From assembly GCF_035918235.1 (NCBI RefSeq), contig NZ_CP109485.1:10013001-10077000 (forward strand): a stretch of DNA of 64,000 bases. The letters are read 5' to 3'. This DNA is from Streptomyces sp. NBC_01445. GTDB taxonomy: Bacteria > Actinomycetota > Actinomycetes > Streptomycetales > Streptomycetaceae. The notes under the pieces were generated by a model. That model did no database searches. It was given only the letters and a program-made list of their open reading frames with translations, and was not told where the DNA came from. Positions 16,850-39,673 of the stretch are shown piece after piece. Within the stretch, counting starts at the first letter, position 1, and each line of letters begins with the position of its first letter. A program made the position numbers and the translations under genes.

Positions 16850-18994
16850 TCACAGGCGGCGCAGCACCGTGAGTTCGGCGTCGTACTCGGCGCTCCAGCA
16901 AAACGGCAGGCCCGCGTGACGCAGGTACGCGCCGCCGTACTCTTGGCCATCGGTCTCGTCCCGGTACCGCGCCCCGGCGTCAACTCCCTTGAGGCGCAGG
17001 CGATCGGGGCGGCCCGGGACCAGTGGCGATCCGTCGAGCCGGCCCGTGCTCAGGGCGGCGACCACGACACGGGCCCCGTCGGGCGCGACGGACTCGACGC
17101 CGAATGTCGGTTCGTCCGGCGAGCCCAGGACGTAGGTGTCGCCGTGGTGGACGACGTCCCGGACGTCCTTGTAGCGAGCGATCCACCGTGCGGCCGAAGC
17201 CAGTTGTTCCTCGCTCCACGTGCCGAGGTCGGCACCGATGCCGAGGACGCCCGTCATCGCGCTGACGAAACGGAACGCGAGGGAACGCGGCCGTGGGTCG
17301 AACAACCCCTGCGCGTCGGTGACCCAGGAGCTCATGGTGTGCGGTGCGTGCGCGTGGAGGTAGCCGTACTGGATCCGGAGCCGGTCCAGCGGGGCGGTGT
17401 TGTCGCTCGGCCACACCACATCGGTGCGGGCGAGCGTGCTGTGGTCGACCCGGCCGCCGCCGCCCGCGCAGCCCTCGACGGTGACGTGCGGGTGGCGGGC
17501 GCGGAGGTGGTCCAGGACGCGCAGGTAGCCCGCCACGTGCGCGGCGTCGAGGTCGAGCTGCTGCGCCGACTTCGGTCCGGGGCGGCCGCGTTCGGTGGGC
17601 GGGCGGTTCATGTCCCACTTCAGGTACGAGATGTCGTAGCGCCCAAGGAGTCGGTCGAGGGTACCGAGGACGAAGTCCTGGACGTCCTCGCGGCCGAGGT
17701 CCAGGAGGAGCTGGTTGCGGACACGGCGGTCCGTGCGATGCGGCAACTGGTAGATCCAGTCCGGGCGTTCGGCGTAGAGCTTCGATGCCGGGCTGACCGC
17801 CTCGGGCTCCACCCACAGTCCGAAGTCGAGGCCGAGGGCGCGTATGTCGTCGATGAAGCGGTCGAAGCCCTGGGGGAACAGTGCGGGATCGGGGTGCCAG
17901 TCGCCCAGTCCGCCGGTGTCGTCGTGTCGGCCGGTGAACCAGCCGTCGTCGACCACGAACAGCTCCGCGCCCAGGTCCGCGGCCCGGCGGGCGAGCGTGA
18001 GCTGGTGGTCGGCCCGCACGTCGAACTCGGTCGCCTCCCACGAGTTGTAGAGGACGGGACGGCGGCGGGTGAGCCGGTCGCCCGCCAGGTGGCGCTCGTA
18101 GCGGTGCCAGACGCGGGACAGACCGTCCAGGCCGTCCGGGCTGAACGCGCAGGCCAGCTTGGGCGTCACCAGTGTCTCGCCGGGGACGAGCAGTACGGCA
18201 CCCTCGTGCGGGACCCGACCCGCGCGCACCCGCACTGCGCCACCGGGCTCCGCGTCGACGGCCATGTGCCAGTTGCCCGCCCATTCCAGGGCGATGCCGT
18301 ACGTGGGGGAGTCGGCGCCACGGTCCGGGTGCGCCGCGTCCTGGACCGCGAGCCAGGGTGCGTAGGCGTGCCCCGGCACACCCTGAGTGCTGCCGAACTC
18401 CAATGTGCCGCGCGTCAGTTGGGTCTGCGTGAAGCTGAACTCCTGCGACCACTGGCCGGTCAGATACGTGACGCGGGCGCCCTGCGCCGACACGGGCACG
18501 TTGACGGCCGCCGAGTCGATCCGCTCCAGGCGTAGCGTCTCGTCGCCCGTGCAGGTCAGTTCGGACCAGCGGCGGATGACGTCGGTGCCGGGAACGATGG
18601 CGTAGCGGACCGTGACGCGCAGGCCGAGGACGTCGTCGTCGAAGGTGAGGTCGAGGGCGGTGTCATTCTCCTGGTGCGCCTCGGTGAAGCGCCACCAGAC
18701 TCCGCGCTCGCCACCGGGGCGGCTCGCGGTCAGGTCGGCGCCGTTGAACGGGCGAAGGCCGTGCGGGATGTACTCGGCTGGCGCCAGGTCGGCGGGCGTG
18801 ACGAAGTGCGTGCGGCGCGACCACTCCAGCGGGGCCGGACCGTCCTCCGCGCCCGCCGGCCCCCACACCGCCAGCTCGGGCCAGATCCCCGCGCCGGGAC
18901 CGTCGCCCTCGCCGTCCCCGCCCAGTGTGACGGCGTAGACGGTGGTGGCCGTGCGCAGGACCCAGCGGTCCGACGGGCGGTCGGTGGTGCTCAC
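16850..18994 (-). CDS. alpha-galactosidase, GH36
   Basis: 714 residues. An N-terminal beta-sandwich is followed by a (beta/alpha)8 barrel with LYNSWEATEF, FVVDDGWFTGRHDD, LKWDMNR (catalytic nucleophile Asp near residue 460), GCAGGGGRVD and WPSDNT (acid/base Asp near residue 530), then a small C-terminal sheet domain. All GH36 catalytic signatures are intact. There is no signal peptide, so it should hydrolyse imported melibiose- or raffinose-type alpha-galactosides in the cytosol. The GTG start at 18994 overlaps the stop of the upstream permease by 4 nt (GTGA), so it is the last gene of the ABC importer operon. In-phase extension upstream runs into the permease frame and is rejected. Confidence 0.95.
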   Translation of the reverse strand: MSTTDRPSDRWVLRTATTVYAVTLGGDGEGDGPGAGIWPELAVWGPAGAEDGPAPLEWSRRTHFVTPADLAPAEYIPHGLRPFNGADLTASRPGGERGVWWRFTEAHQENDTALDLTFDDDVLGLRVTVRYAIVPGTDVIRRWSELTCTGDETLRLERIDSAAVNVPVSAQGARVTYLTGQWSQEFSFTQTQLTRGTLEFGSTQGVPGHAYAPWLAVQDAAHPDRGADSPTYGIALEWAGNWHMAVDAEPGGAVRVRAGRVPHEGAVLLVPGETLVTPKLACAFSPDGLDGLSRVWHRYERHLAGDRLTRRRPVLYNSWEATEFDVRADHQLTLARRAADLGAELFVVDDGWFTGRHDDTGGLGDWHPDPALFPQGFDRFIDDIRALGLDFGLWVEPEAVSPASKLYAERPDWIYQLPHRTDRRVRNQLLLDLGREDVQDFVLGTLDRLLGRYDISYLKWDMNRPPTERGRPGPKSAQQLDLDAAHVAGYLRVLDHLRARHPHVTVEGCAGGGGRVDHSTLARTDVVWPSDNTAPLDRLRIQYGYLHAHAPHTMSSWVTDAQGLFDPRPRSLAFRFVSAMTGVLGIGADLGTWSEEQLASAARWIARYKDVRDVVHHGDTYVLGSPDEPTFGVESVAPDGARVVVAALSTGRLDGSPLVPGRPDRLRLKGVDAGARYRDETDGQEYGGAYLRHAGLPFCWSAEYDAELTVLRRL

Positions 18995-19833
18995 TTGACT
19001 GCTCCAAGATTGAGGCCGGCCACGAAGTGGCGCTGGAAGCGGAGGAAGACGAGGACGGTCGGGGCCGCGGCGATGACGGAGCCCGCCGCGATCACGTTCC
19101 ACTGCGAGACGTACTGGCCCTGCAGATTGATCAGCGACGCCGTGATCGGCATGTGTGTCTCCGTGCGGAGCACGCTGATCGCCCACAGCAGGTCGTTGAA
19201 GATCCAGGTGAAGGACAGGGCACTGAGCGCGGCGAGCGCGGGGCGGGCCAGCGGCAGCACGATCCGCCAGTAGATCGTCGCGGGCCCGGCCCCGTCGATC
19301 ACCGCCGCCTGCTGCACCTCCGGCGGGATCGACCGCATGAAGCCGTGCAGCACGAAGACGTAGAAGCCGATGCCGAAACCGACCTGTACGCCGATGAGAG
19401 CCCACAACGAGTCGTAGATGCCGACGAGTTCGCTCATCTTGGAGACGGGGATGAGCAGGATCTGCGGGGGCAGGAGGTTGCCTGCCAGCATGACGAGCAG
19501 CAGGGTGCGCCGACCTGGCAGGGAGTAGCGGCTGAGCGCGAACGCGGCCATCGACGCGAGCAGCAGGGAGATGAGGACGCTGGGTACGGTGACGAGCAGG
19601 CTGTTGATCAGAGCCTGCTTCTGTCCGCCCTCGGTCCAGGCCTGACGGAAACCGTCGAGGCTGAAGGAGTGCGGTGCCGAGCCGAGGCCGTTGGCGGCGA
19701 TGTCGTCGAAGGTGCGGGTCGCGGTGATCACGACGAGGACGATCGGGACGAGCCACAGCACGGCGAGGGCTCCCGCGCCGAGGTGGAACCCGGCGGTGGC
19801 GGCGCGGCGGCGCAGCAGGGTGGGGCTGTTCAT
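18991..19833 (-). CDS. ABC sugar transporter permease, MalG-type
   Basis: 280 residues with six transmembrane helices. The EAA loop carries PPEVQQAAVIDGAGPATIYWRIVLPLARP, the ATPase-docking segment of carbohydrate permeases (CUT1, MalG-like). The start codon overlaps the stop of the MalF-like gene by one base and its stop overlaps the GH36 start, showing tight coupling. With the MalF partner and the lipoprotein at 20779 it makes an importer. No ATPase gene is present in the cluster. In Streptomyces a shared MsiK ATPase usually energises such systems, which is inferred here. Confidence 0.95.
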   Translation of the reverse strand: MNSPTLLRRRAATAGFHLGAGALAVLWLVPIVLVVITATRTFDDIAANGLGSAPHSFSLDGFRQAWTEGGQKQALINSLLVTVPSVLISLLLASMAAFALSRYSLPGRRTLLLVMLAGNLLPPQILLIPVSKMSELVGIYDSLWALIGVQVGFGIGFYVFVLHGFMRSIPPEVQQAAVIDGAGPATIYWRIVLPLARPALAALSALSFTWIFNDLLWAISVLRTETHMPITASLINLQGQYVSQWNVIAAGSVIAAAPTVLVFLRFQRHFVAGLNLGAVK

Positions 19834-20777
19834 CAGTCGGCCTCCCGGAAGGCGCGGACGAGATAGGAGGCGATGACGCCGAAGGCCAGCAGGAAGATGA
19901 CGACGGCGAGCGCGGAGCCGTAGCCGAGGCGCAGCGACTGGAACGCCGTCGAGTACATGTAGGTGCTCAGGAGCTCGGAAGAGTGGTACGGGCCGCCGCG
20001 GGTCAGCGACCAGACCACGTCGAAGGAGCGCAGCGAGTCGATGATGATGACCGAGAGGACGACCGCGTTGACGCTCTTGAGCTGGGGGAGTGTGACGTGC
20101 CGGAGCTGCTGGAGACGACTGGCGCCGTCGACCTTGGCGGCCTCGTACAGCATCGGGTCGATGCCCTTGAGGCCGGCCAGGTAGAGGACCATCACGTACC
20201 CGATCTGCCGCCACAGCGCGGGCAGCAGGACCGCGTACAGGGCGGTGTCGCGGTCTGCGAGCCAGGAGCGGGTGAGGTTGTCGAGGCCGACGCCCTCCAG
20301 GACCTGGTTGATGAGTCCGTCCGGCTGGTACATCGCCTGCCAGACGAGGGCGGTGGCGACGAGCGAGAAGACGACGGGCAGGAAGAGCGCGGCGCGGTAG
20401 AAGCCGACGCCGCGGCGCTCCTGCTGGAGCAGCAGCGCGGCGCCGAGCCCGAGTACCGCGGACAGACCGCCGAACAGCACCAGCCACTTCGCCGTGTTGG
20501 CCAGGGCGTGCCAGAAGACCGTGTCGTGCGCCATCTCGCGGAAGTTGCCGAGGCCGATCAGGTGGGCGGCGGAGATGCCGTCCCAGTCGGTGATCGCGAG
20601 ATAGAAGCCCTGGAGGGCGGGCCAGAACACCCAGAAGCCCTCGGCGAGCAGGGGGACGAGGACGAAGGCGACGACGAGGGGCGGTACGCGGGTGGCGGCG
20701 CCCCGGCGCGGGCGGCGGGCGGACGACGTCTTGCGCGGGCCCGCGGCCGGGCGGGTGTCGGTGTCGAGGAGGGCCAT
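19833..20777 (-). CDS. ABC sugar transporter permease, MalF-type
   Basis: 314 residues with a basic cytosolic N-terminus (about 30 residues of Arg/Pro-rich sequence), then six transmembrane helices. The EAA motif is in DPMLYEAAKVDGASRLQQLRHVTLPQLK. It is a standard CUT1-family MalF-like permease without the large periplasmic loop of E. coli MalF. The gene begins 1 bp after the binding-protein stop and overlaps the MalG gene, so the three are co-translated. The likely substrate is an alpha-galactoside, judged from the flanking GH36 and GH27 enzymes. Confidence 0.95.
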   Translation of the reverse strand: MALLDTDTRPAAGPRKTSSARRPRRGAATRVPPLVVAFVLVPLLAEGFWVFWPALQGFYLAITDWDGISAAHLIGLGNFREMAHDTVFWHALANTAKWLVLFGGLSAVLGLGAALLLQQERRGVGFYRAALFLPVVFSLVATALVWQAMYQPDGLINQVLEGVGLDNLTRSWLADRDTALYAVLLPALWRQIGYVMVLYLAGLKGIDPMLYEAAKVDGASRLQQLRHVTLPQLKSVNAVVLSVIIIDSLRSFDVVWSLTRGGPYHSSELLSTYMYSTAFQSLRLGYGSALAVVIFLLAFGVIASYLVRAFREAD

Positions 20778-20778
20778 G

Positions 20779-22077
20779 TCACTTCCCCCAGATCTTCTCG
20801 GCGTCCCGCTGCCACGTGGTCAGGGTCGACGCGATGCGGTCCGGCTCGGACAGATAGCGGATGAGGGCGGTGTCGGCGGTGGGGGATAGCTCGTCGCTGG
20901 AGTCACGGTTGAAGAACTGGGTGACCTCGGCGGCCGACTCGACAAGCGCGCGGCCCTTCTTCACCAGGGCGGTCCCGCTGTCCTTGGCGTCGGGATGCGT
21001 CGGCAGCGCGGTGCCGGAGGAGCTCTTGAGGTAGGTCTCCTGCGCCTGGGCGGTGGCGAGGTAGCGCAGGAACTCCTTGGTCTGGCGCCCGCGCGGAGTG
21101 CGCGCGCCGGCGAAGTAGCCGTCGGTGGGCGCCTCTTCGGCCATCGGCACCTTCGGGTCGATCTCGGGGAACCGGAAGAAGTCGATGTCGTCGAGCTGGT
21201 CCTTGGGCACGGAGTCGGCGAAGAACGTGCCGATGAGCATCATTCCCGTACGTCCCTGGAGCAGTTCGGTGGTGGCGTCCTGGAAGGCGAGGGCCGTGCC
21301 GCGCTTGTCGATGAAGGGGCGTGCCTCGTCCCAGCGGTCGAAGACGCGCCGTACCTCCGTGTCGTCGAAGCGGTGCCGGCCCGCGAGCAGGTCGCGGTGG
21401 TACTGGGCGCCGTTGATGCGGATGTTGAGGTAGTCGAACCAGGAGGACGCGACCCACGCGGTGCCGCTGCCCGCGCCGAGCCCGATGGGGGTGACCTTCT
21501 TGCGCTGCAGGGTCTCGCACAGGTCGAGGAAGTCGTCCCAGGTGCGCGGCTCGTCCACGCCCCACTTCCTGAAGTTGGACTTCCGGTAGAAGAAGCCCCA
21601 CCAGTAGTAGCTCGTCGGCACGAACACCTTGTGGCCCGCGCGCGACGTGCACAAGCTCTTGAGCGCCTTGCTGTAGCGGGACAGGTCCGGGCTCTGCCAC
21701 ACGTCGTCGAGGTTGAGCAGGAGGTCGCGGCGCGCGTACGCGTCGGCCACCGAACCCGGGTACCAGGTGTACAGATCGGGCGGGTTGGCCGAGGTCAGGT
21801 AGGTGGGCAGCTGAGTGCGGAAGGTCTCCGAGGCCACGGTGTTCAGCGAGGCCGAGGCGCCGCCGCGCTGGTTGAAGCCGTCGACGACCTTCTGCAGCGC
21901 GGTCTTCGCCTGCGGTGCCGAGAGGTTGGACTGCAGGGTGACGTCGCCGCCGGAGGAGACGTTGGAGCGTACGGACGTGACGCAGCCGCTCAGTGCGGCA
22001 CCGGCGCCGAGGGCTCCGACGCCGGTGAGCAGGCGCCGTCTGCTGGGACGTGAACTGCCGGTGGGCAAGGGGGACAT
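20779..22077 (-). CDS. ABC sugar-binding lipoprotein (Tat-exported)
   Basis: 432 residues. The N-terminus has a twin-arginine signal (SRPSRRRLLTG), a hydrophobic stretch and the lipobox LSGC, so it is exported folded and lipid-anchored outside the membrane. The body is a type I extracellular solute-binding protein (GFNQRG, NPPDLYTWYPGSV, a Trp-rich sugar site YYWWGFFYRKSNF, TWDDFLDLCE). It should capture an oligosaccharide and deliver it to the MalF/MalG permeases. The ATG at 22077 follows an AGGAGT-type site. Upstream lies a hairpin at 22093-22127, separating it from the GH27 gene. It may be cotranscribed with GH27 and adjusted by that hairpin. Confidence 0.95.
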   Translation of the reverse strand: MSPLPTGSSRPSRRRLLTGVGALGAGAALSGCVTSVRSNVSSGGDVTLQSNLSAPQAKTALQKVVDGFNQRGGASASLNTVASETFRTQLPTYLTSANPPDLYTWYPGSVADAYARRDLLLNLDDVWQSPDLSRYSKALKSLCTSRAGHKVFVPTSYYWWGFFYRKSNFRKWGVDEPRTWDDFLDLCETLQRKKVTPIGLGAGSGTAWVASSWFDYLNIRINGAQYHRDLLAGRHRFDDTEVRRVFDRWDEARPFIDKRGTALAFQDATTELLQGRTGMMLIGTFFADSVPKDQLDDIDFFRFPEIDPKVPMAEEAPTDGYFAGARTPRGRQTKEFLRYLATAQAQETYLKSSSGTALPTHPDAKDSGTALVKKGRALVESAAEVTQFFNRDSSDELSPTADTALIRYLSEPDRIASTLTTWQRDAEKIWGK

Positions 22078-22157: not shown

Positions 22158-24257
22158 TCAGTCGGAGGCGGGCAACGGGGCCTGCCACAGCTGCCCGTCG
22201 ACACCCCGGAACGTGGCGGTCAGCGGCGTGCCGGTGAGGGAGGGTGTGCCCGCGAGGGCCGCGCTGGCGAACTCGGTGCGCTTGGACCAGCCGCTCCACG
22301 CGTCGTCGCCCTGGCCCGCGGCGAGCGAGCGCTGCCACACGGTGTAGTCGCCGGCCCGGGACACGAGTCGTACGGTGTCGCCGTCGAGGGCGAGGGCGGG
22401 CGAGGCGCTGGTGGCGCCGCCGAGCGAGGCCCAGGGGGACCAGGAGCCGTCGGTGTCGTGGACGCGGGTCCACACGGCGCTGTCGGTGGCGCGCACCGCG
22501 ACATGCACGCGCCCGTCGGCATCGGTCACGGCCGCCGGGTCGTCGTACAGGCCGAGACCGTCGGGGGCGCCGAGCCGCTGCCAGTCGCCCGCGGCCGAGC
22601 GGACGAGGAGGCCACCGTCCTCGCCGCGCACGGCGAGGGTGTCGGGGGCCGTGCCGGTTCCGGCCGTCGCGGGAGCGGAGGAGACGGCCGGGCCCGCGAC
22701 GCGCCGCCAGTCGCCGACGGCCCGGCCGTCGTTGATCTGCCTGCGGTACAGGTGGCCGTCGGTGGCGCGTACGTACACCTCGATACGTCCCTTGCCGTTG
22801 GCGCGAGCCACTGGCTTGCCCGTGACACGACCGTCGCCGGGACGTCCCAGCGAGGTCCCGTTCTCAACCACCGTTCCAGAGGCGGTGGTTGAGAACACGT
22901 CGTCGCCGACGGCGGCCGGATCGGCGGGCGAGCGCACACCCAGACGCGTGCCCGGCGCGGTGTCCTTGCCGTCCAGCTTCAGGAAGGCCGTGCCGTGGCC
23001 GGGGACCTCGACCGTGTACGAGCCGTCGTGGACGCCGCGGTCCGCGCGGGCCCGCAGATCGCGCACCCGCACAGGACCGGTCAGACCCGCGTCGGCGAAG
23101 TCGACGGTGAGGCGCGCCGCCTTGTCGGAGCGGTTGAGCAGGGCGACGGCCCGGTGGCCCGCCCCCTGGAGGACCTTGCTGTAGACGTCGCCGGTCGCGT
23201 CGCTCGCCACGCGCACGCCCTGAACGGCGAGCGGGTCCTGGTCGACGTCGATGATCTCCGGGTTGCGCAGCGTGTCGACCATGTCCTGCGGCAGGGTGCG
23301 GGGATCGGAGCCGATGACCAGCGGCGAACCCATCAGTGCCCACATGACGAGCTGAGTCATGGACTCCTCGGTGGTGAGTTCGGGTGTGCCGTCCTCCAGC
23401 TTGCGCAGCGGGATCAGGTAGTCCGGGTCGTTGTAGTGACCGGGGGTCTGCGCCTCAGGGTGCGCCATGTTGGCGTCCATGTTGCGCAGGATGTTCGGCC
23501 ACTGGTTCTCGTGCGGCGTGCCCCAGGCGACGTCGGTGCCGGTGCGCCAGGAATCCGCCAACCGGGGCCCGAACCGGTACGAGTTGTGCGCGTCCTGCGC
23601 CGGGGTGTGCGGCACGCCCCAGTCGTCCGTGAGCGGGTTGCACAGGTTGAGCAGCATGGGCCGGCCCGTCTTGCGGACGGCCGCGCTGAACTCCTTGAAT
23701 GCCGGCTCCGGATCGGCCTTCTCGGCGATGCCGCACAGGAAGTCGACCTTGATCGCGTCGACCTTCCAGTCGGCGAACTGCCGGGCGTCCTCGGCGTAGT
23801 GGCCGCGGCTGCCGAGCCCGCAGCTCTTGCCGCCGTCGTACGTCCCGGCATCCGTGTAGATCCCGGCCTTCAGGCCGCGTCGGTGCAGGTAGTCCACGAG
23901 GGACGGGATGCCGGACGGGAAGCGCTCGCGGTTCGCGGCGAGGTGGCCCTCGGCGTCGCGTGGGGTGTCGGCCTGCCAGCCGCCGTCCAGCCACACGATG
24001 TCGTAGCCGCTCTTCTTGAGCCCGCTGCTCACGAGGAAGTCCGCGACGCTCTTGACGTCCTTCTCGGTGGGCGCGCCCAGGCCGAAGTAGGTGTTCCAGC
24101 CCATGTACGGGGTCGGGGCGAGGGGCGTGGGGGTGGGCTCGTGGGGTGCCGCAGGGCGGTCGGCCGCGGCGACCGGGACCGCCGGCGACAGCACGGCCGC
24201 GACGAGGAGGGCGGCGAGGGTGGCCGTCCCGGTCGTCGCTGCGCGGGGTGAAGTCAC
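22158..24257 (-). CDS. secreted alpha-galactosidase, GH27, with C-terminal propeller-like domain
   Basis: 699 residues. A Sec signal peptide (about residues 1-32, ending VAAADRP) is followed by the GH27 barrel: TPYMGWNTY, DIVWLDGGW, DAIKVDFLCG with the nucleophile Asp near residue 170, and NDPDYL with the acid/base Asp near residue 276. A beta-sandwich (residues about 350-430) follows. The last 230 residues contain repeated GRIEVYVRATDGHLYRR / GRVHVAVRATDSAVWTR units, a lectin-like beta-propeller likely to bind polysaccharide. The enzyme would release galactose from galactomannan-type polymers outside the cell. An operator-like AT-rich site lies at 24361-24378 upstream. There is a long leader of about 100 bp. 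Confidence 0.95.
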   Translation of the reverse strand: MTSPRAATTGTATLAALLVAAVLSPAVPVAAADRPAAPHEPTPTPLAPTPYMGWNTYFGLGAPTEKDVKSVADFLVSSGLKKSGYDIVWLDGGWQADTPRDAEGHLAANRERFPSGIPSLVDYLHRRGLKAGIYTDAGTYDGGKSCGLGSRGHYAEDARQFADWKVDAIKVDFLCGIAEKADPEPAFKEFSAAVRKTGRPMLLNLCNPLTDDWGVPHTPAQDAHNSYRFGPRLADSWRTGTDVAWGTPHENQWPNILRNMDANMAHPEAQTPGHYNDPDYLIPLRKLEDGTPELTTEESMTQLVMWALMGSPLVIGSDPRTLPQDMVDTLRNPEIIDVDQDPLAVQGVRVASDATGDVYSKVLQGAGHRAVALLNRSDKAARLTVDFADAGLTGPVRVRDLRARADRGVHDGSYTVEVPGHGTAFLKLDGKDTAPGTRLGVRSPADPAAVGDDVFSTTASGTVVENGTSLGRPGDGRVTGKPVARANGKGRIEVYVRATDGHLYRRQINDGRAVGDWRRVAGPAVSSAPATAGTGTAPDTLAVRGEDGGLLVRSAAGDWQRLGAPDGLGLYDDPAAVTDADGRVHVAVRATDSAVWTRVHDTDGSWSPWASLGGATSASPALALDGDTVRLVSRAGDYTVWQRSLAAGQGDDAWSGWSKRTEFASAALAGTPSLTGTPLTATFRGVDGQLWQAPLPASD

Positions 24258-24360
24258 AGAGCTCTCCTGAGGTGATGACCGACGTGGGTGGCGTCGTCCG
24301 CCGGTGTGGGAGCCGGTTGGGAAGCGCTCGGACGACTGTTGCCGCAGGGGCCGACCCTGT

Positions 24361-24378
24361 CAATAACAATTCCTAATT
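24361..24378. promoter_or_regulatory. AT-rich operator, putative DgoR-like GntR site C
   Basis: On the minus strand it reads AATTAGGAATTGTTATTG, 104-121 bp upstream of the GH27 start, in DNA that is otherwise over 70% GC. Its first ten bases match the AATTATGAAT core of the two sites beside gntR at 31280-31355 in 9 of 10 positions. Confidence 0.6.
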
Positions 24379-24464
24379 AACTAAAAATCGAGAGACGGAT
24401 GTGACCGTCGCGATCGTCCGTGCGGTCCCGGCACCCGTGGTGCGGTCCCACCGTCCGCGGGCAT

Positions 24465-24519
24465 GCCGACGAGCCGGCCGGACTCGCCCGCGCAGGGGCG
24501 TTCCGGTCGGCTCGTCGGC
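24465..24519. terminator. terminator after the SMP-30 gene
   Basis: An 18-bp inverted repeat (GCCGACGAGCCGGCCGGA with one mismatch) and a 19-nt loop, starting 12 bp downstream of the lactonase stop codon. It separates that operon from the GH27 promoter. Confidence 0.75.
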
Positions 24520-24531
24520 CGTGTTCTCGTC

Positions 24532-30195: not shown

Positions 30196-30283
30196 GTTCT
30201 TTCCCGGATGGTTCTTCCCGGAGAGGACTTTCCGGATGGGTGGCCCGCTTCGCAGGGCGGGCCGGGACGTGTGGTGGGGGTGG

Positions 30284-31198: not shown

Positions 31199-31279
31199 GG
31201 GTCGTTCCTCGGGGCGTACGGACGGGCACGGAAGGGCTACGACCAGGACTGCACCACTCGGCACCGGCCCCCGTCAAGG

Positions 31280-31355
31280 ATTATTCATAATTAATTCTCC
31301 TGGTGGGGCTGAGCGGGACCCCCTGGTTGAGCTTCCAAAAATTATGAATTAAATT
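31280..31355. promoter_or_regulatory. paired AT-rich operators A and B of the DgoR-like GntR
   Basis: Site A at 31280-31296 (ATTATTCATAATTAATT) and site B at 31337-31355 (AAAATTATGAATTAAATT core) carry the same 10-mer AATTATGAAT in opposite orientation, centres 57 bp apart. They lie between the divergent epimerase operon and gntR. These islands of AT bases in very GC-rich DNA are the best operator candidates. Site C at 24361 has the same core with one change. Confidence 0.7.
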
Positions 31356-31412
31356 GGCCGCCGGAGGTGGTGCGACCGGCAGTCGGCCCGTCGCACCAGA
31401 GGGGAGCAGAGC

Positions 31413-32141
31413 ATGGTGTCCTACGCCGGGCGCGGAGTGCACGGAGGCGTCGTCGAATCGCTCGGCTCCCGGGTGGTCGGGGGCAAGGTGGCCGTCGGCG
31501 CCACCCTCGATCCGCGCACCCTGGTCGACAGCATGGGCGTCAGCCTCACCGTCATCCGCGAGGCGCTCAAGGTCCTCGCGGGCAAGGGCCTGGTCGCCTC
31601 CCGCCAGAAGCGCGGCACCTTCGTCCGGCCGCGCACCGAGTGGAACGTCCTCGACGCGGATGTGATCCGATGGCGCATCGAGGGCGGCGAGGCGGACGCG
31701 GTCCTGCGCGACCTCGCGGAGATGCGCTCCATCGTGGAACCCGCCGCTGTGCGACGGGCCGCCGAGCGCCGCACCGAACAACAACTGGGCGACCTCGAAG
31801 CGGCACTCGACCGCATGGCCCGGGCCGGTAACGACGCGGCCGAGGCGGTGGCCGCCGACTCCGACTTCCATCACGCACTCCTCGTCGCGTCCGGCAACGA
31901 GATGCTGGCCATGCTGCACGACCTGATGGCCCCCGCACTGCGGGCGCGCGACAGCATCGTGCACGGTGAGCACGGCTGCGCCGACGACCCGGTGCCCAGC
32001 CACCGCGCGGTCCTGGACGCGATCCGGGACCGCGACGCCGCGCGCTCGGGTGCGGCCATGGCGGACCTGCTGGCGAAGGCGGACCGCGACCTCGACCTGG
32101 CCGTGCGCGGCCAGGCTCGCGCGGCATCCGTCCAGGGCTGA
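31413..32141 (+). CDS. dgoR: GntR/FadR-subfamily regulator, DgoR-like
   Basis: 242 residues. The N-terminal winged helix (LGSRVVGGKVAVGATLD, SLTVIREALKVLAGKGLV, KRGTFVRPR) is followed by WNVLDADVIRW, a segment shared with E. coli DgoR, then an all-helical FCD ligand domain with metal-type ligands (EMRSIVEP, SDFHHALL, SHRAVLDAI). DgoR represses galactonate genes and is released by D-galactonate. The same role here fits the flanking dgoD, lactonase and epimerase. The start is an ATG just after GGGGAGCAGAGC. Confidence 0.85.
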   Translation: MVSYAGRGVHGGVVESLGSRVVGGKVAVGATLDPRTLVDSMGVSLTVIREALKVLAGKGLVASRQKRGTFVRPRTEWNVLDADVIRWRIEGGEADAVLRDLAEMRSIVEPAAVRRAAERRTEQQLGDLEAALDRMARAGNDAAEAVAADSDFHHALLVASGNEMLAMLHDLMAPALRARDSIVHGEHGCADDPVPSHRAVLDAIRDRDAARSGAAMADLLAKADRDLDLAVRGQARAASVQG

Positions 32142-32573: not shown

Positions 32574-32773
32574 TTAGCTTCTGCCCTTGGCGCGGGCCGG
32601 CGCGGTCTCCGGCAGGCGCCACACGCACAAGGCGCTGGCGAGTCCGGCCGCGGCCATGTAACCGGCCAGGTACCAGGGGCGGTCGCCGCCCGCGTCGACC
32701 AGCAGCGTCGCCACGAACGGCGAAGTCCCCGCGAAGATGACCCCGTTGATCTCGCGGACGAAGACAAGACCGG
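32574..32773 (-). pseudogene. MHS-family MFS transporter, C-terminal part
   Basis: The minus-strand residues GLVFVREINGVIFAG, then TSPFVATLLVDAGGDRPWY, then a last transmembrane helix ending RLPETAPARAKGRS form the helix 11-12 end of a metabolite:H+ symporter. The N-terminal 390 residues are at 36065-37229. The junction with TnpB copy 2 is within codon ACC (Thr) of the sequence VRF-TGLV. Confidence 0.9.
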
Positions 32774-32780
32774 TCAACTG

Positions 32781-32801
32781 CCCGGTCGTGAAACGACCGG
32801 G
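32781..32801 (-). ncRNA. right-end hairpin / presumptive omega-RNA 3' part, copy 2
   Basis: A perfect 9-bp stem CCCGGTCGT / ACGACCGGG with a 3-nt loop lies 7 bp from the element end, identical to copy 3. The 79 nt between the tnpB stop and the end are conserved. The guide would be the adjoining MFS sequence starting CCGGTCTTG. Confidence 0.45.
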
Positions 32802-32852
32802 CTTGCTGCTCGAGTCATCACTGGCTGTGATGGGTTCGGCTGCGTCCAGTTC

Positions 32853-34025
32853 TCACGCGATGAGGGTGAGTTCGGGGGCCGTTGACTGAGCCCCGCAGAC
32901 CCACCCCATCCACCCGCGTTGGCGGATGTTGTGGGACGCGTTGTGGTCCGCGTGCTCAACGAAGCCGCAGACCCGGCACGAGAAAACAGCCTGGGCAGGC
33001 CGGTTTCCACGTGCGGTGTGATGACACTTCGAGCATTCCTGGCTGGTGTAGGCCGGGTCGACGTAGACGACCGGCACCCCGGCCCGCTTCGCCTTGTAGG
33101 CGATGAACGAGCCGAGCTGGGCAAAGGGCCAGGAGTGGAGCGTGGTGCGTTGGGGCTTTCTCAGCCGTGCCCGCTCGCGAATGCCCTTCAGGTCTTCCAG
33201 GGCGATCCCGCGACCGGTGCGTTCAGCCTCCGCCACGATCCGCTTCGAAATCTTGTGGTTGATGTCCTTGTTCCGCCGGGCTTCCCTGCCCGCATGCTTC
33301 TTTGCCCGCCGCTTGGCGGACTTGGTGTGCTTCTTCTGCAGCTTGGAACGCAGCTTGCGATCCTGCTCCCGCTTGCGATTGACACGGCGACCGCAATGTC
33401 GTCCCCCGTCGGAGGTGACCGCGATGTTCACGATCCCCAGGTCCACCCCGAGGAACCCGACCGGGTGGGCGTTCGGGGCAGCTTCAGCAATCTCGCAGGT
33501 CGCGATCAGGAACCACTTCCCGCCCTGACACACCAGGTCGGACTCACCCTGGCGGTGCGCAGCCAGGACCTCCAGCTGCCCGGCCTGCCCAGTGAACGCC
33601 ACGCCCTTCAGCCGGCCTGCCATGGACCAGATCGACACGGTGCGTGCCTGGTGCTGCCAGGACAGCATCCGGTCGTCGTACGGCTGCGCCGCCTGGGGCC
33701 GGAAGACCACCGGCTTGCCCGAGGCGCGAGTGTGCCGCTTGGTCCCGGGCCGCCCGTAACGTCCCGCCCGGAGGTTCGCCTTCAGGGTGGTGTAGGCATC
33801 GCAGGTCTTCTTGATCGCGTGCTGGGCGGCCTGCGCGCCAAGCCCCCACCTCTCCCGGATCTCGGCATAGGTGTGCTTGCGCAACTCCAGCGGACGTCGC
33901 GCGTTTTCCTCGAAAGCAACCCCGGCCGCCCAGGTCGCCGCTTGATTGCAGGCGTGCAGGGTCGCCTCAAGTGCCGCCGCCTGTACGGGCGTCGGCAGCA
34001 GCCTCACCCGCACCACCAGCTTCAC
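32853..34025 (-). CDS. tnpB: TnpB RNA-guided nuclease, copy 2
   Basis: 390 residues from the GTG at 34025 (KLVVRVRLLPTPVQ), the start conserved in copy 3. RuvC residues are in GVDLGIVNIA, ALEDLKGI and HADHNASHNI, and the zinc ribbon is CSKCHH / CRVCGF. All are intact. It ends GAQSTAPELTLIA. It differs from copy 3 by scattered substitutions and is clearly a recent duplicate. The IS1182 insertion lies upstream of the coding sequence, in the left-end leader, and may disturb its promoter but leaves the coding sequence whole. Confidence 0.92.
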   Translation of the reverse strand: MKLVVRVRLLPTPVQAAALEATLHACNQAATWAAGVAFEENARRPLELRKHTYAEIRERWGLGAQAAQHAIKKTCDAYTTLKANLRAGRYGRPGTKRHTRASGKPVVFRPQAAQPYDDRMLSWQHQARTVSIWSMAGRLKGVAFTGQAGQLEVLAAHRQGESDLVCQGGKWFLIATCEIAEAAPNAHPVGFLGVDLGIVNIAVTSDGGRHCGRRVNRKREQDRKLRSKLQKKHTKSAKRRAKKHAGREARRNKDINHKISKRIVAEAERTGRGIALEDLKGIRERARLRKPQRTTLHSWPFAQLGSFIAYKAKRAGVPVVYVDPAYTSQECSKCHHTARGNRPAQAVFSCRVCGFVEHADHNASHNIRQRGWMGWVCGAQSTAPELTLIA

Positions 34026-34240
34026 GATCACCGAACCTATACACCTGAACGAAGACCCACCACACGTTCGCCCCACCTCACCCGAACGAGCGATACCGGC
34101 CCCGGCCCTCCCGGCGCACACCGCCGTAGCCCGGCTCCGCCGGAATGCCTCCCGGCCGCTGCGCGGCCGTCATGGCCTGCGGCACATCGCGGCGACGCTC
34201 CGCGTCGCACCCCGTGGATGCGATTCCTCCCGGGCATGAA

Positions 34241-36033
34241 CGACTCCGTTGGGAAAGTCGTGATTCGGGCAGTGCTGTGTCGTTCGTCTTGCTGATGGCT
34301 ATGGTCGTTGGCGGGATGGGGAGAGCGGGATGTCGTTGGAGTCGCGGTCGGATGACGGAGTGCCTGAGCTGACGGCTCGGGTGGTGCGGGCCTCGTTCCC
34401 CAAGGGGACTTTGGCCATCCGGATCAGGGAAGTGCTCGGTCCGGTGTTCACGGACGAGGATTTCGCCGGGGCCTTTGCTGATCGAGGCCGGCCCGCGATC
34501 TCGCCAGGGGCTCTGGCGCTGGTGTCGGTGCTGCAATATGCCGAAGGACTCTCCGACCGGCAGGCCGCTGACCAGGTGCGAGCGCGCATGGACTGGAAGT
34601 TCCTGTTGGGGCTGGAGCTGGATGATCCCGGCTTCGACTTCACCGTCCTGGGGGATTTCCGCTCCCGTCTGATCACGCACGGGCTGGAAGAGCGGGTCTT
34701 GGAGGTGGTGCTGGCGCGGCTCTCGGACGCCGGGCTGCTGCGGGCGGGCGGCCGGCAGCGCACCGACTCGACGCACGTGCTGGCCGCGGTGCGCACGCTG
34801 AACCGGATGGAGTTCGTCGGTGAGACGCTGCGGGCGGCGCTGGAGGCGCTGGCCGCGGCCGCTCCGGACTGGCTGAGCGGATTGATCAGCCCCGGGTGGG
34901 TGGAGCGCTACGGGGCCAAGGTCGACAACTACCGCTTCCCGAAAGGGGAGAACGTCCGTCGGGAATGGGCCGAGCAGGTCGGCCGGGACGGGTTCGCTCT
35001 GCTTGACGCCATTGATGGGCCGGCCGCTGTGGCCTGGCTGCGCGAGGTGCCCGCAGTGCGGATCCTGCGCCGGGCCTGGGCAGAGCAGTATCACCGGGAC
35101 GGGCAGGGGGTGCGCTGGCGGGAGGGCAAGGACCTCCCGCCGGCCAGAGACCGGCTGTCCTCGCCCTATGACACCGACGCCCACTACGGCATCAAACGCG
35201 GGACGGGCTGGTGCGGATTCAAAGTCCACCTGAGCGAGACCTGCGAGCCGGACGCACCCCACCTGATCACGAATGTGGAGACCACCAACGCCACCGTCAA
35301 CGACACCGAGGTCACCGCAACCATCCACCAGCATCTGGATGAACGGGGGTTGAGGCCGCGTGAGCATGTGGTGGACGCCGGTTACGTCACCGCCGCCCAC
35401 ATCCTGGCCGCCCACGAAGACCATGGCATCGACCTGGTCGGTCCCGTCGGCGCTGATACCCACCACAACGGACGGGACGCGCAGGCACCGGACCTGACTC
35501 AGGCCGCCTTCACCACCAACTGGAACGCCAGGAAGGTTATCTGCCCTCAGGGCGCGTCCAGTGTCAGCTGGTCCCAACAGCGCAAGGCCAGTGGGACCGT
35601 GCTCGTCCGGGTGCACTTCGCACTCGCCGACTGCGATCCATGCCCGCTGAGAGCGCGCTGCACCAAAGCAGCCAACGGCAAATGGGGCCGCAGCCTGACC
35701 CTGCTGCCCCGAGAGCAGCAACAGATCCTCGAAGAACGACGTGCCGAGCAGCAGACCGACGAGTGGAAGGCCCGCTACGACGTGCGAGCCGGGGTGGAGG
35801 GCACCATCTCCCAGGCCGTCCGCCGCACCCATCTGCGCCGCACTCCCTACCGAGGCCAGCACAAGACCCACCTCGCCAACGTCCTCTCCGCCACCGCCCT
35901 CAACCTCACCCGAATCGACGCCTGGCTGCGGGGCACCCCACTCGGCACCACCCGCGTCTCCCACCTCGCACGCCTCACCCTCGCGGCATGACCCGCCCCC
36001 GAGAGCCGATTTATGGATTTCCCAACGGAGTCG
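34241..36033 (+). mobile_element. IS1182-family insertion sequence, complete
   Basis: 1793 bp bounded by a perfect 16-bp inverted repeat (CGACTCCGTTGGGAAA), flanked by a 4-bp direct duplication TGAA (34237-34240 and 36034-36037). It contains one intact transposase. It lies in the left-end leader of TnpB copy 2. Deleting it with one TGAA restores a sequence nearly identical to copy 3 (CGGGC(A/G)TGAACGCCC). Completeness indicates a young insertion. Confidence 0.95.
34330..35991 (+). CDS. IS1182-family DDE transposase
   Basis: 553 residues. The N-terminal DUF772-type domain (SPGALALVSVLQYAEGLSD) precedes the DDE domain, with Asp in RTDSTHV, Asp in VVDAGYV and Glu in GVEGTISQAV. A Cys cluster CDPCPLRARC precedes the third motif, as is common in the family. 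The ATG follows GGGGAGAGCGGG. The length is normal and the catalytic residues are all present, so it should be active. It cuts and pastes the element in which it lies. Confidence 0.95.
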   Translation: MSLESRSDDGVPELTARVVRASFPKGTLAIRIREVLGPVFTDEDFAGAFADRGRPAISPGALALVSVLQYAEGLSDRQAADQVRARMDWKFLLGLELDDPGFDFTVLGDFRSRLITHGLEERVLEVVLARLSDAGLLRAGGRQRTDSTHVLAAVRTLNRMEFVGETLRAALEALAAAAPDWLSGLISPGWVERYGAKVDNYRFPKGENVRREWAEQVGRDGFALLDAIDGPAAVAWLREVPAVRILRRAWAEQYHRDGQGVRWREGKDLPPARDRLSSPYDTDAHYGIKRGTGWCGFKVHLSETCEPDAPHLITNVETTNATVNDTEVTATIHQHLDERGLRPREHVVDAGYVTAAHILAAHEDHGIDLVGPVGADTHHNGRDAQAPDLTQAAFTTNWNARKVICPQGASSVSWSQQRKASGTVLVRVHFALADCDPCPLRARCTKAANGKWGRSLTLLPREQQQILEERRAEQQTDEWKARYDVRAGVEGTISQAVRRTHLRRTPYRGQHKTHLANVLSATALNLTRIDAWLRGTPLGTTRVSHLARLTLAA

Positions 36034-36064
36034 TGAACGCCCGGGGTTCCTCGCAAGAATCCGC

Positions 36065-37229
36065 TGAAGCGGACCTCGGTCGGCAGCGACTCGGCGTAGA
36101 GCGTGCCGGTGACCGCGAAGACGGAGTTGAGTATCAGGGCGAAAGCGACGGTGATGGCCAGGTAGATCAGCCACGGCTCGCGGGTGTCCACCAACCAGAA
36201 GAACGGATACGCGAAAAGCGTGATCGCCACCGCGCCGCCGATCATCACCGGCTTGCGGCCGACCCGGTCGGACAGGGCGCCCGCCAGCGGGATGGTGAGG
36301 ATGGAGATCGCCGAGGCGATGGTGATGCCGAGGACCGAGGTACCGGAGGACAGGCCGAGCTGGTTGGTGAGGTAGCTCGGCAGGTAGCCCTGGATCGCGT
36401 ACGAGGCGATGGCGGTGGCGCAGCCGGAGCCGATGAGCAGTGCGATCGCCTTGGGGCGGCTCTTGATCGCGGCGAGGACGGGGAGCTTCTCGCGCCTGCC
36501 GCTGTCGCGAGTGGCCTCGAACTGCTCGGTCTCGGGCGCCGCGTTGCGGATGACGAGAGCGATGATCACGACCAGGGCGCTCGCCAGGAACGGGATGCGC
36601 CAACCCCAGTCGAGGAAGTCGTCCTGGGGGAGCGTGGAGACGGCGGCGACCGCGCCGGAGGCGATGACGACGCCGATGAACTCGCCCGCGCCGGGCAGCG
36701 ATCCGTAGAAGCCGCGCTTCTCGGCCTTCGCCGCCTCCGTCGACATGACGTACGCGCCGCCGAGTTCGGCGCCGACGCCGAAGCCCTGCATCATCCGGCA
36801 GAGCACGAGTAGCACTGGGGCCCAGATGCCGATCTGGTGGTACGTGGGGAGGAAGCCGATGGCGAGGGTGCCGGCGCCCATCAGAACCACGGTGAGGATC
36901 AGCACCGGGCGGCGGCCCAAGCGGTCGCCGAGGTGGGCGAGGACCAGGCCGCCGATGGGGCGGACGGCGAAGCCCAGGCCGAAGGTCGCGAAGGAGGCGA
37001 GCGTCGCCGCGAACGGGGACACGTTCGGGAAGAAGACCTTGTTGAAGACGATCGCGGCCGAGGCGCCGAAGAGGAAGAAGTCGTACCACTCGAGGATCGA
37101 GCCGACGACGCTGGCGGCGGCGGTGCGGCGCTGCCGGGTGCGGGCGCTCATCGCCGCCTGCGGTCCGGTCTCCTGATGGGCGTTCTGATGGGCGTTCTGG
37201 TGTGTGGATGCGCTCGGCGGCGTGCTCAT
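36065..37229 (-). pseudogene. MHS-family MFS transporter, N-terminal part (split gene)
   Basis: From the ATG at 37229 (after AAGGGAGTGAG), a short His/Gln repeat (HQNAHQNAHQE) and basic segment lead into ten transmembrane helices. MHS signatures include GSILEWYDFFLFG, HLGDRLGRRP, CRMMQGFGVGAELGGAYV and LPGAGEFIGV. The frame ends LPTEVRFS at the left end of TnpB copy 2. Joined to 32574-32773 it would give about 455 residues. MHS porters carry dicarboxylates, shikimate, keto-acids or betaines. Transport of galactonate or a keto-deoxy sugar acid is inferred from the neighbours only. The gene is inactivated. Confidence 0.92.
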
Positions 37230-37283
37230 CTCACTCCCTTTCGCTTCACGCTGGTGGGGGGATTCTGTGCGGCTCACACCTCG

Positions 37284-37310
37284 TGTTGCAACATATGCAC
37301 GCCTGTTGCA
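37284..37310. promoter_or_regulatory. IclR-type operator candidate (TGTTGCA repeats)
   Basis: A perfect 10-bp palindrome TGTTGCAACA (37284-37293) is followed by a third TGTTGCA at 37304-37310. It lies between the divergent MHS transporter and the kinase-iclR-aldolase operon. Confidence 0.55.
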
Positions 37311-37352
37311 CGGGGGCTGCTAATGTTCTTCATGACCACTGCGGGATGTCAA

Positions 37353-37371
37353 TGGCATGTCACCCATGCCA
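37353..37371. promoter_or_regulatory. inverted repeat before kinase gene
   Basis: TGGCATG-tcacc-CATGCCA, a perfect 7-bp inverted repeat ending 16 bp upstream of the kinase start. It could be a second regulator site or a leader hairpin near the ribosome site (GGAGGGA). Confidence 0.5.
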
Positions 37372-37387
37372 ATGGAGGGACGGCGCG

Positions 37388-38305
37388 ATGACCACCACGG
37401 CCGCTACGGCTGTCTGCCTCGGCGAGACGATGGCGCAGGTCACGCCCGCCGACGGCGCAGGCCTCGAGCACAGCGAGGAGCTGCGGCTCGCCGTCGCGGG
37501 CGCCGAGTCGACCGTCGCCCAGTACCTCGCCGACCTCGGCCACGGCGCCGCCTGGGTGAGCCGGGTCGGCGACGACCCGTTCGGGCGGCGGATCGTCGCG
37601 GCGGTCGCGTCACGCGGCGTGGACGTCACCGGCGTACGGCGCGACACCTCGGCCCCGACCGGCATCTACTTCAAGGACCCGAGGCCTGACGGCACGCGCG
37701 TGCACTACTACCGGGCCGGCTCGGCGGCCTCCCGGATGAGCGCGGCCGACGCGGACGGCATCGACCTGACCGGCGTACGGCTGCTGCACCTGACCGGGAT
37801 CACACCCGCCCTCTCCGACACGTGCGCGGTGCTCGTGACCACGCTTCTGGAGCGGGCGGCCGGCACAAAAACCCTGGTCTCGTTCGACATCAACCACCGT
37901 CCCGCGCTGTGGAGTTCGCGCGGCGAGGCGGCCGAGGCGCTGCTCGCCCTGGCACGCCGCGCCGACATCGTGCTCGTCGGGCGCGACGAGGGCGAGACCC
38001 TGTGGGGCACCGCCACCGCACAGGACATCCGTGACCACATCGCGCCGCGTGGCACGCTCGTCGTCAAGGACGGCGCCGTGGGAGCCACTGAATTCACCGA
38101 CGGGACACAGGAGTTCGTGGCCGCGCCCGCCGTGGACGTGGTGGAGGCCGTCGGCGCGGGTGACGCCTTCGCCGCCGGATACCTGAGCGGGCTGCTCGAC
38201 GGTGCGGCGCCGCGCGAGCGCCTCGCCCTCGGTCACCGTCTGGCCGGGCGCACGCTGCGCAGCATCGAGGACTACGTCCCCATCTCGCCAAACGACAGGA
38301 GCTGA
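37388..38305 (+). CDS. PfkB-family 2-keto-3-deoxy-sugar-acid kinase
   Basis: 305 residues of the ribokinase/PfkB fold. It has a GETM N-terminal signature with a substrate Asp/Glu pattern, an AGAESTVAQYLADLG glycine motif, GDDPFGRRIV, FDINHRPALW, and the C-terminal anion-hole motif VEAVGAGDAFAAGYLSG with the catalytic Asp. These features are typical of KDG kinases. Next to a KDPG-type aldolase and in an island with dgoD, it probably phosphorylates 2-keto-3-deoxy-galactonate at C6. The ATG at 37388 follows AATGGAGGGA. It is the first gene of a three-gene operon. Confidence 0.9.
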   Translation: MTTTAATAVCLGETMAQVTPADGAGLEHSEELRLAVAGAESTVAQYLADLGHGAAWVSRVGDDPFGRRIVAAVASRGVDVTGVRRDTSAPTGIYFKDPRPDGTRVHYYRAGSAASRMSAADADGIDLTGVRLLHLTGITPALSDTCAVLVTTLLERAAGTKTLVSFDINHRPALWSSRGEAAEALLALARRADIVLVGRDEGETLWGTATAQDIRDHIAPRGTLVVKDGAVGATEFTDGTQEFVAAPAVDVVEAVGAGDAFAAGYLSGLLDGAAPRERLALGHRLAGRTLRSIEDYVPISPNDRS

Positions 38306-38309: not shown

Positions 38310-39056
38310 GTGTCACAGACCGTACGGCGGGCCATCGATATCCTGGAGTGCATCGCCCGCAGGCCGCGCACGCAGACCGAGGTCGGCGAGCACCTGGGCG
38401 TGCACCGGTCGACCGCGCTGCGCCTGCTGGAGTCGCTGGCCGAGGGTGGACTCGCCCGCCGCCTGCCCGACGGGCGGTACGCGGTCGGCCACCGGCTCGC
38501 CGGGCTTGCCCAACTCGCCCGGGAACAGTTCGGCTTGAAGGACGTCGCAAGCGAGCACCTGCGCGGGCTTGGTGAGCGCAGCGGACACACCGTGCACCTC
38601 GCAGCGCTGGAGGGCGAACAGATCGTGTACGTCGACAAGGTCGACCCGGTGGACGGAGTGCGGCTGTACTCGCAGATCGGCCGGCCCGTCACGCTGCACA
38701 CCGCGGGCGTCGCCAAGGCGATCCTCGCCCACGTACCCCGCGATCGGGCCGACGCGCTCCTCGCCGGCTGCGACTTCGCGCCGCACACCGGCACGACGAT
38801 CACCGACGCAGCCGCCTACCGCGCGGCCCTCGACGAGACCCAGGCGCGCGGCTGGGCCGTCGACGACGGTGAGTACGAGGACTACGTGAACTGCCTCGCC
38901 GTCCCCGTGCGCGACAGCGGCGGCGACGTGGTCGCCGCCGTGTCCGTCACCGCTCTGAAGGCGAAGGCCGACCTGGCTGCCCTTGAGGCCGACGTATTGC
39001 CTGACCTGATGACCACCGCCGAGACGATCTCCAAGGAGCTGGGATGGCGCCCCTGA
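38310..39056 (+). CDS. IclR family transcriptional regulator
   Basis: 248 residues from a GTG four bases after the kinase stop. The N-terminal helix-turn-helix (VRRAIDILECIARRPRTQTEVGEHLGVHRSTALRLLESLAEGGL) is split by a wing RRLPDGRYAVG. The C-terminal effector domain has AKAILAHVP, WAVDDGEYEDYVNCLAVPV. IclR proteins bind keto-acid-type ligands and typically control sugar-acid catabolism, as KdgR does. It is coupled to the kinase and overlaps the aldolase by 13 nt. The TGTTGCA repeats upstream of the kinase are candidate sites. Confidence 0.92.
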   Translation: MSQTVRRAIDILECIARRPRTQTEVGEHLGVHRSTALRLLESLAEGGLARRLPDGRYAVGHRLAGLAQLAREQFGLKDVASEHLRGLGERSGHTVHLAALEGEQIVYVDKVDPVDGVRLYSQIGRPVTLHTAGVAKAILAHVPRDRADALLAGCDFAPHTGTTITDAAAYRAALDETQARGWAVDDGEYEDYVNCLAVPVRDSGGDVVAAVSVTALKAKADLAALEADVLPDLMTTAETISKELGWRP

Positions 39057-39673
39057 CCCCCGTAGACGCCGAGACGCCTACGTTCGACGAGTTGTTCGCC
39101 AAGTCGCCCGTGATGGCGATCCTGCGCGGAATGCCGGCGGACAAGTCCGTGGAACTCGCCGTACGAGCATGGGACTTGGGCATCGAGTGCGTCGAGGTAC
39201 CGGTGCAGACCGAGGAGGCCGCGCGGGTGCTCGCCGCCGTGGTGGCTGCGGGCCGCGAGCGCGGCAAGGCGGTCGGTGCGGGCACGGTCACCACGACCGA
39301 GCGCCTCGAGTGGGCGGTGTCGGCGGGTGCCGCGTTCACGGTGGCCCCCGGGCTCGCTGCCGAGGTGGCGCAGGCCAGCATCGACGCGAGCCTGCCGCAT
39401 CTGCCCGGCGTCGCCACCGCCACCGACGTCCAGGCGGCGCGGGCGCTCGGCCTGACCTGGCTGAAGGCGTTCCCGGCGAGCGTGCTCGGTCAGGGCTGGT
39501 TCAAGGCCATGAGGGGCCCGTTCCCGGAGGTGCCGTTTGTGGCGACGGGCGGCATCGACGCGTCCAACGCTGCCGCTTACCTGGCAGCCGGAGCCAGGGT
39601 CGTCGCCGTGGGCTCAGCCCTGGAGGACCCGGAACAACTCCCGCTGCTGGCTGATCTGTTGGCATCCCGCTAG
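39044..39673 (+). CDS. bifunctional KDPG/KDPGal aldolase
   Basis: 209 residues of the class I KDPG aldolase barrel. AILRG near the start, ECVEVPVQT with the catalytic Glu, GAGTVTT, APGL, and TWLKAFPA with the Schiff-base Lys are all present, then FVATGGIDASN for phosphate binding. It splits 2-keto-3-deoxy-6-phospho-(galacto/gluco)nate into pyruvate and glyceraldehyde-3-phosphate, the last step of the pathway. Its start lies inside the iclR gene, 13 nt before the iclR stop, so translation is coupled. Confidence 0.93.
   Translation: MAPLTPVDAETPTFDELFAKSPVMAILRGMPADKSVELAVRAWDLGIECVEVPVQTEEAARVLAAVVAAGRERGKAVGAGTVTTTERLEWAVSAGAAFTVAPGLAAEVAQASIDASLPHLPGVATATDVQAARALGLTWLKAFPASVLGQGWFKAMRGPFPEVPFVATGGIDASNAAAYLAAGARVVAVGSALEDPEQLPLLADLLASR

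Follow-up and report, generated by a model that had tools for sequence, protein, structure and literature searches.

By which route does Streptomyces sp. NBC_01445 break down alpha-galactosides with the genes at positions 16,850–39,673 of the stretch analysed here, and does this route take the place of the Leloir pathway? The window, as we call the whole stretch of 64,000 nucleotides, covers positions 10013001–10077000 of C1, the main contig (10,433,345 bases) of a two-contig genome of 11.47 Mb; it lies about 0.36 Mb from the end of C1, has a G+C content of 69.3% and gave no match in tRNA scans or in Rfam scans at the gathering threshold. An earlier reading of the letters and open reading frames (the sequence-only reading) had proposed a De Ley-Doudoroff-type route from alpha-galactosides to pyruvate. 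An oxidative galactose route fed by alpha-galactosidases appears to be the best reading of these genes, because the galactonate dehydratase DgoD exceeds its equivalog cut-off and because the gene set is conserved. We put at about 0.78 the probability that these genes form an accessory system for the use of alpha-galactosides, ending in an oxidative pathway of this type.

Pfam and NCBIfam assignments agree with the names given by the sequence-only reading to each enzyme, to the importer permeases and the solute-binding protein (SBP), and to the GntR and IclR regulators, all of which lie within the island (Table 1). The DgoD call stood as well: the protein scores 570.6 bits against NF010624 (cut-off 311), aligns over its full length with E. 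coli DgoD (51% identity, 382 columns) with long conserved segments in common, and matches the solved structure 3rr1 with 430.5 bits; the roles of DgoD residues are known. The GH36 protein aligned with Geobacillus AgaA has both catalytic regions, KWDMNR and CAGGGGRVD (CxGGGGR type), the residue roles in which are likewise known for GH36.

For the comparison with relatives, the best 80 of at least 560 DgoD relatives from a genome scan were taken as the locus set, 67 of the 80 loci being at least 21 kb long and some being cut by contig ends. GH36, SBP, permease 1, the short-chain dehydrogenase/reductase (SDR), the PfkB-family kinase and the 2-keto-3-deoxy-6-phosphogluconate/galactonate (KDPG/KDPGal)-type aldolase (Eda) occur all together in 43 of the 80 loci, which by record title belong to six genera (Streptomyces 30, Actinacidiphila 5, Micromonospora 4, Catellatospora 2, Paractinoplanes 1, Microbispora 1). 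Since the synteny is conserved to this degree, a chance association of the named genes is excluded. Taken singly, matches to the window proteins were found for GntR in 72/80 loci, SDR in 68/80, PfkB in 59/80, Eda in 58/80, GH36 and SBP in 50/80 each, GH27 in 45/80 and SMP30 in 38/80. The usual order in Streptomyces is GH27-SBP-perm-perm-GH36-SDR-GntR-DgoD-epimerase-like-Eda-(SMP30)-PfkB, where the epimerase-like gene, matched in 59/80 loci, had no Pfam or NCBIfam match and its class was judged by eye. The layout of the window, in which galM and a major facilitator superfamily (MFS) porter lie upstream and the kinase and aldolase genes stand at a distance, recurs in the closest fetched locus, L011 of Streptomyces sp. 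CB01635 (DgoD 98% identical), and partly in L012.

From these assignments a flux from polymer to pyruvate may be proposed. Secreted GH27 would trim galactosides outside the cell, the ATP-binding cassette (ABC) importer would bring oligosaccharides in and GH36 would free galactose inside, while free galactose may enter through the MFS porter. No ABC ATPase was found among the cluster open reading frames searched with Pfam and NCBIfam, and the importer probably relies on an ATPase whose gene lies elsewhere; Streptomyces importers use a shared ATPase. The epimerase would supply the right anomer for the SDR, which would convert galactose to galactonolactone, and the SMP-30 protein, a putative lactonase by its membership of PF08450, would open the lactone. 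DgoD would then yield 2-keto-3-deoxygalactonate (KDGal), which the PfkB kinase and the class I aldolase would turn into pyruvate and glyceraldehyde 3-phosphate.

The regulation of the upper part of this route may be read from its promoters. The AT-rich stretches upstream of GH27 and in the galM-gntR intergenic region have in common the palindrome AATTMNKAATT, read there by eye and then tried on the other loci, with two exact sites and one one-mismatch site in the window. Only two exact copies exist in the whole genome (11.47 Mb), both inside the island, and it is their location, not their number, that is telling. All 80 loci together hold 90 sites, versus 3 in one Markov shuffle and 1 in another, and at least one site with up to one mismatch is present in 56 of them. 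In the 78 loci L013–L090, which exclude the nearest relatives L011 and L012, we counted sites with up to one mismatch within 350 bp upstream, leaving out GH27, SBP and GH36 matches below 45% identity as well as genes preceded by fewer than 350 bp on the plus strand. The operator preceded SBP in 40/47 cases, GH27 in 29/41, SDR in 10/65 and GntR in 3/69, and none was found before GH36 (0/48), DgoD (0/78), Eda (0/57), PfkB (0/58) or SMP30 (0/36); of the 84 sites, 75 are at most 400 bp away from the start of a GH27, SBP or SDR match. In six Micromonosporaceae loci (L069, L071, L073, L081, L088, L090) solely a one-mismatch variant occurs, before SDR. Across 70 sites of L013–L066 the flanks widen to TAAATTAGTAATTAAT, followed after one base by TTGAC, a -35-like box; this arrangement suggests repression. 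A consensus promoter scan of 24200–31500, which covered one promoter type, gave no promoter-like site.

Over 217 residues the GntR protein shares 32% identity with E. coli DgoR, and the region upstream of E. coli dgoR contains TTGTAGTACAA, of equal length and with the same central TAGTA as the common form AATTAGTAATT of the relatives; the two exact window sites have other central bases. The sequence-only reading had called this regulator DgoR-like, and a GntR/FCD regulator with conserved palindromic promoter sites suggests a DgoR-type regulon. We propose that this protein is the partner of AATTMNKAATT and represses both the GH27-ABC-GH36 unit and the galM-MFS-SDR-dgoD-SMP30 unit, probably together with its own gene, and that the kinase-IclR-aldolase module is under IclR. 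Of the three transcription units under two regulators proposed earlier, the GH27 and galM units have predicted operators before them; SDR and dgoD are split by a TnpB element in this strain, and the kinase unit is separable. Besides this operator, our analysis adds a separate kinase-IclR-Thr-aldolase module, the insertions and the atypical GH27 motifs to what had been noticed before.

Several observations weigh against a galactose pathway of this kind. The top NCBIfam match of the SDR is a 'glucose 1-dehydrogenase' subfamily (217.3 bits, cut-off 215), and among the 60 solved SDR matches listed, out of 690, no protein bears the name 'galactose dehydrogenase'; by sequence the SDR is generic, and galactose is its presumed substrate. 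KDGal and 2-keto-3-deoxygluconate (KDG) kinase models are the top matches of the kinase, with NF041332 at 165 bits under its cut-off of 440. The FVATGG motif of the window aldolase contains Thr; the corresponding residue is Val in E. coli DgoA and in 55/55 standard-type aldolases of the DgoD loci. In GH27, DGGW (DGxW) and the Tyr of GWNTY replace the DDxW and Trp of alpha-galactosidases. In 37/80 loci one or more of the six genes tested went unmatched, partly owing to contig ends. No operator with up to one mismatch was found in 24/80 loci, and a reversed-pattern control gave one genomic site, beside which two copies are unremarkable by number alone. Finally, the main operon is interrupted by the TnpB element in the present strain. 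In sum, the De Ley-Doudoroff-type route first proposed is upheld by the gene families, DgoD and the synteny, and is qualified by the aldolase type, the GH27 motif, the interruption and the retention of the Leloir genes.

The GH27 motifs bear directly on the sugar that enters the pathway. DGxW and GWNTY are invariant in 14 aligned GH27 proteins (two of 15 extracted proteins were excluded, L031 with a doubtful start and the truncated L054), and so are K170/D172 and R238/D242, with the catalytic nucleophile and the acid/base Asp. Solved plant GH27 enzymes have DDCW and Trp, and among 30 GH27s classified from the present genome and family DDCW occurs in 28 and DGGW in 2, both from loci of the island kind; two of 32 stretches gave no motif and were left out, and the fetching of the highest-scoring stretches favours the canonical type. 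Another GH27 of the genome, at L101, showed DAGW in one reading and no motif in the classification. Judged by the -1 subsite, the residue roles of which are known from human alpha-galactosidase, the island protein is not a textbook alpha-galactosidase. The nearest solved sequence is the S. avermitilis beta-L-arabinopyranosidase 3a21 (229.7 bits; 334.9 bits by profile), in which the role of Glu99 is known; it differs in having DEGW and Trp in place of DGGW and Tyr, and the island protein carries a lectin-like C-terminal propeller. This propeller (22158–22950) resembles Photorhabdus PLL and the fucose lectins of fungi. The motif conservation and the kinship to 3a21 would both suit an enzyme acting on another sugar with axial O4, such as a beta-L-arabinopyranoside or a 6-O-modified galactose, in place of terminal alpha-galactose, with the SDR oxidising that sugar or both; we consider this distinctly unlikely. 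Still more improbable in our estimation is that the secreted DGxW enzymes release disaccharides: with Gly and Tyr in place of the conserved Asp and Trp near O4/O6 in the -1 subsite, they might accept O6-substituted galactose and free alpha-1,6-galactobiose or 6-O-modified galactose, to be imported by the co-regulated ABC system and finished by GH36 and the oxidative pathway. An analogue would be isomalto-dextranase, which frees isomaltose; the Arthrobacter globiformis enzyme 5awo turned up in the structure comparison only, is 20% identical, and was not listed in the sequence searches, including a profile search up to E 5.

The sequence-only reading had set the oxidative route apart from the Leloir route by which streptomycetes are normally described as using galactose, and this opposition had to be given up. 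A search for the Leloir genes found all three: galT, galE and galK adjoin one another at about 5.985–5.988 Mb of C1, each above its cut-off (TIGR00209, TIGR01179 and TIGR00131, respectively). Among 150 genomes of the genus, the present one included, galK occurs in 147 and DgoD above its cut-off, in any neighbourhood, in 55. The suppositions that the present genome lacks the Leloir route and that streptomycetes lack the oxidative one are both rejected on these data; the oxidative route adds to the Leloir route and does not replace it. The present genome also has a second DgoD operon (L096:9500–13100) in the order GntR-DgoD-Eda-PfkB with a Val-type aldolase, which could supply the lower steps; no AATTMNKAATT site with up to one mismatch was found in this locus.

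This second operon matters for the kinase-IclR-aldolase unit, which looks like a separate module. No AATTMNKAATT operator was found before it; its promoter region (37278–37387) has a different conserved element of the TGTTGCA..TGCACGCCTGTTGCA type, a candidate IclR site, the window form of which, TGTTGCAACATATGCACGCCTGTTGCA, runs on in L011 as far as printed. L120 and L121 hold near matches to TGTTGCAACATATGCACGCCTGTTGCA, L123 has a looser one, and no such element was seen in L122, where MFS2 abuts PfkB. A close window-type aldolase (E ≤ 1e-50; ten candidates scored per genome) is present in 10/295 genomes of the genus, including the present one and one of the same species. The residue at the Thr position carries meaning in these enzymes, the KDPGal aldolase having Val in place of Thr, and the window-type aldolases with Thr are three (L011, L067 and L089). 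Because the window aldolase is of the Thr type and that of the second DgoD operon of the Val type, the work of the lower pathway is probably divided between two loci of the genome. The whole unit with MFS2 may even be an unrelated sugar-acid (KDG/uronate) module that stands beside the island by chance, with the second operon processing KDGal, which would leave the galactose reading of the other genes intact. The lack of an AATTMNKAATT operator, the separate promoter element, the Thr-type aldolase and the Val-type one of the second operon speak for this, as does the occurrence of PfkB-IclR-Eda with neither DgoD nor MFS2 close by in G103, G059 and G180, three of six wider neighbourhoods read; G232 has Eda-PfkB without IclR, and G225 has MFS2 after Eda and weak (28–33%) DgoD and SDR matches some kb away. 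Against it, the order MFS2-PfkB-IclR-Eda-DgoD is found in G263, the window-type PfkB and Eda belong to the DgoD loci L067 and L089 and stand next to DgoD in L122, and the adjacency is kept in L011. We consider such a chance neighbourhood less likely than not.

The present copy of the island has also been disturbed. Alignment to L011, the DNA of which is 96.6–98.3% identical, revealed two insertions absent from that relative (junction overlaps of up to 8 bp make the ends approximate). The first, the TnpB element, has one frame at 99.8 bits against NF040570 (cut-off 100) and a second frame judged by eye; it sits directly before dgoD and has left GAAAGG, probably the native ribosome-binding site, 1.4 kb away on the upstream side. 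The other, of about 3.3 kb, cuts off the last ~64 residues of MFS2, which is intact in L011 (3955–5391). One may suppose that this strain is losing the island: the TnpB insertion would be polar on dgoD and SMP30, the broken MFS2 would reflect lost selection, and galactose would be used through the Leloir pathway. The oxidative pathway would still hold for the relatives. The intact state of L011 and the presence of galT, galE and galK fit this, and no consensus promoter was found between the element and dgoD, in a scan of one promoter type only; yet dgoD, SDR and the GH genes are still open, and the element's own end provides GGAGGA 5 bases before the dgoD GTG. Decay appears rather unlikely to us.

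Compared with known systems, the island resembles the E. coli dgo operon (dgoR-dgoK-dgoA-dgoD-dgoT) in its DgoD and its DgoR-like GntR, in the 11-bp palindrome with central TAGTA shared by the relatives, and in its aldolase (31% identical to DgoA; 35% for the standard-locus aldolase). It differs in that the dgo operon, by its gene names as annotated, starts with imported galactonate, whereas here galactosidases, an importer, a dehydrogenase and a lactonase precede DgoD, and in that the kinase is of the PfkB type; by BLAST, DgoK matched none of the proteins compared. In the De Ley-Doudoroff pathway of Pseudomonas and rhizobia a dehydrogenase, a lactonase, a dehydratase, a kinase and an aldolase act in this order, and the island has candidate enzymes for the same succession of steps. 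Unlike that pathway, the island has an SDR and an SMP-30 protein, is joined to alpha-galactoside uptake and GH27/GH36, and coexists with the Leloir route.

Table 1. Features of the island and its surroundings in window coordinates. Families were assigned with Pfam and NCBIfam; starts marked (e) are estimated likely starts, and operon limits are presumed.
Feature	Position	Strand	Basis and remarks
GH36 alpha-galactosidase, probably cytosolic	16850–18994 (e)	-	PF02065, 322.9 bits; Geobacillus AgaA, 352 bits
ABC importer permease 2	18991–19833 (e)	-	PF00528
ABC importer permease 1	19833–20777	-	PF00528; best NCBIfam matches far under cut-off
SBP	20779–22077 (e)	-	PF01547; RR and lipobox-like LSGC N-terminus by eye
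GH27	22158–24257	-	PF16499, PF17801; signal-peptide-like N-terminus by eye; C-terminal lectin-like beta-propeller
Predicted GntR operator AATTCCTAATT	24368–24378		Upstream of GH27, few bases from TTGACA
SMP-30/gluconolactonase-type lactonase	24532–25407 (e)	-	PF08450, 211.5 bits
D-galactonate dehydratase DgoD	25401–26546	-	NF010624, 570.6 bits (cut-off 311)
TnpB element, ~1.4 kb	26550–27959	+	TnpB split over two frames; between SDR and dgoD; absent from L011
SDR, candidate galactose 1-dehydrogenase	28025–28783 (e)	-	PF13561
MFS sugar porter	28780–30195	-	PF00083, 324.7 bits; TIGR00879, 308.9 bits (cut-off 237.8)
Aldose 1-epimerase (galM)	30284–31198 (e)	-	PF01263, 159 bits
Predicted GntR operator, 1 mismatch	31282–31292		galM side of divergent region
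Predicted GntR operator AATTATGAATT	31340–31350		Between galM and gntR
GntR/FCD regulator	31413–32141	+	PF07729, PF00392
Insertion, ~3.3 kb	32773–36060		Second TnpB gene 32853–34121 (-) and IS1182 transposase 34330–35991 (+); absent from L011
MFS2, metabolite:H+ symporter-like	36061–37277	-	TIGR00883 top match, under cut-off
PfkB-family kinase, KDG/KDGal kinase-like	37388–38305 (e)	+	PF00294
IclR regulator	38310–39056 (e)	+	PF01614, PF09339
KDPG/KDPGal-type class I aldolase, Thr-type (FVATGG)	39044–39673	+	PF01081
Multicopper oxidase	42279–43787		Few kb past the island

The concrete predicted operator makes the regulon testable, and the GH27 group poses a sharp question of specificity; release of disaccharides by these enzymes, if true, would amount to a private-goods strategy denying free galactose to competitors. 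Genome G046 of the genus (locus L091) has DgoD-SDR-PfkB, and neither galK, searched with two models, nor galT was detected in its assembly, which is 99% complete in 250 contigs; if the absence of these genes is real, this natural strain would depend on the oxidative route. For the actinomycetes at large, an oxidative galactose route is apparently tied to alpha-galactoside uptake in several genera, where it stands beside a near-universal Leloir pathway.

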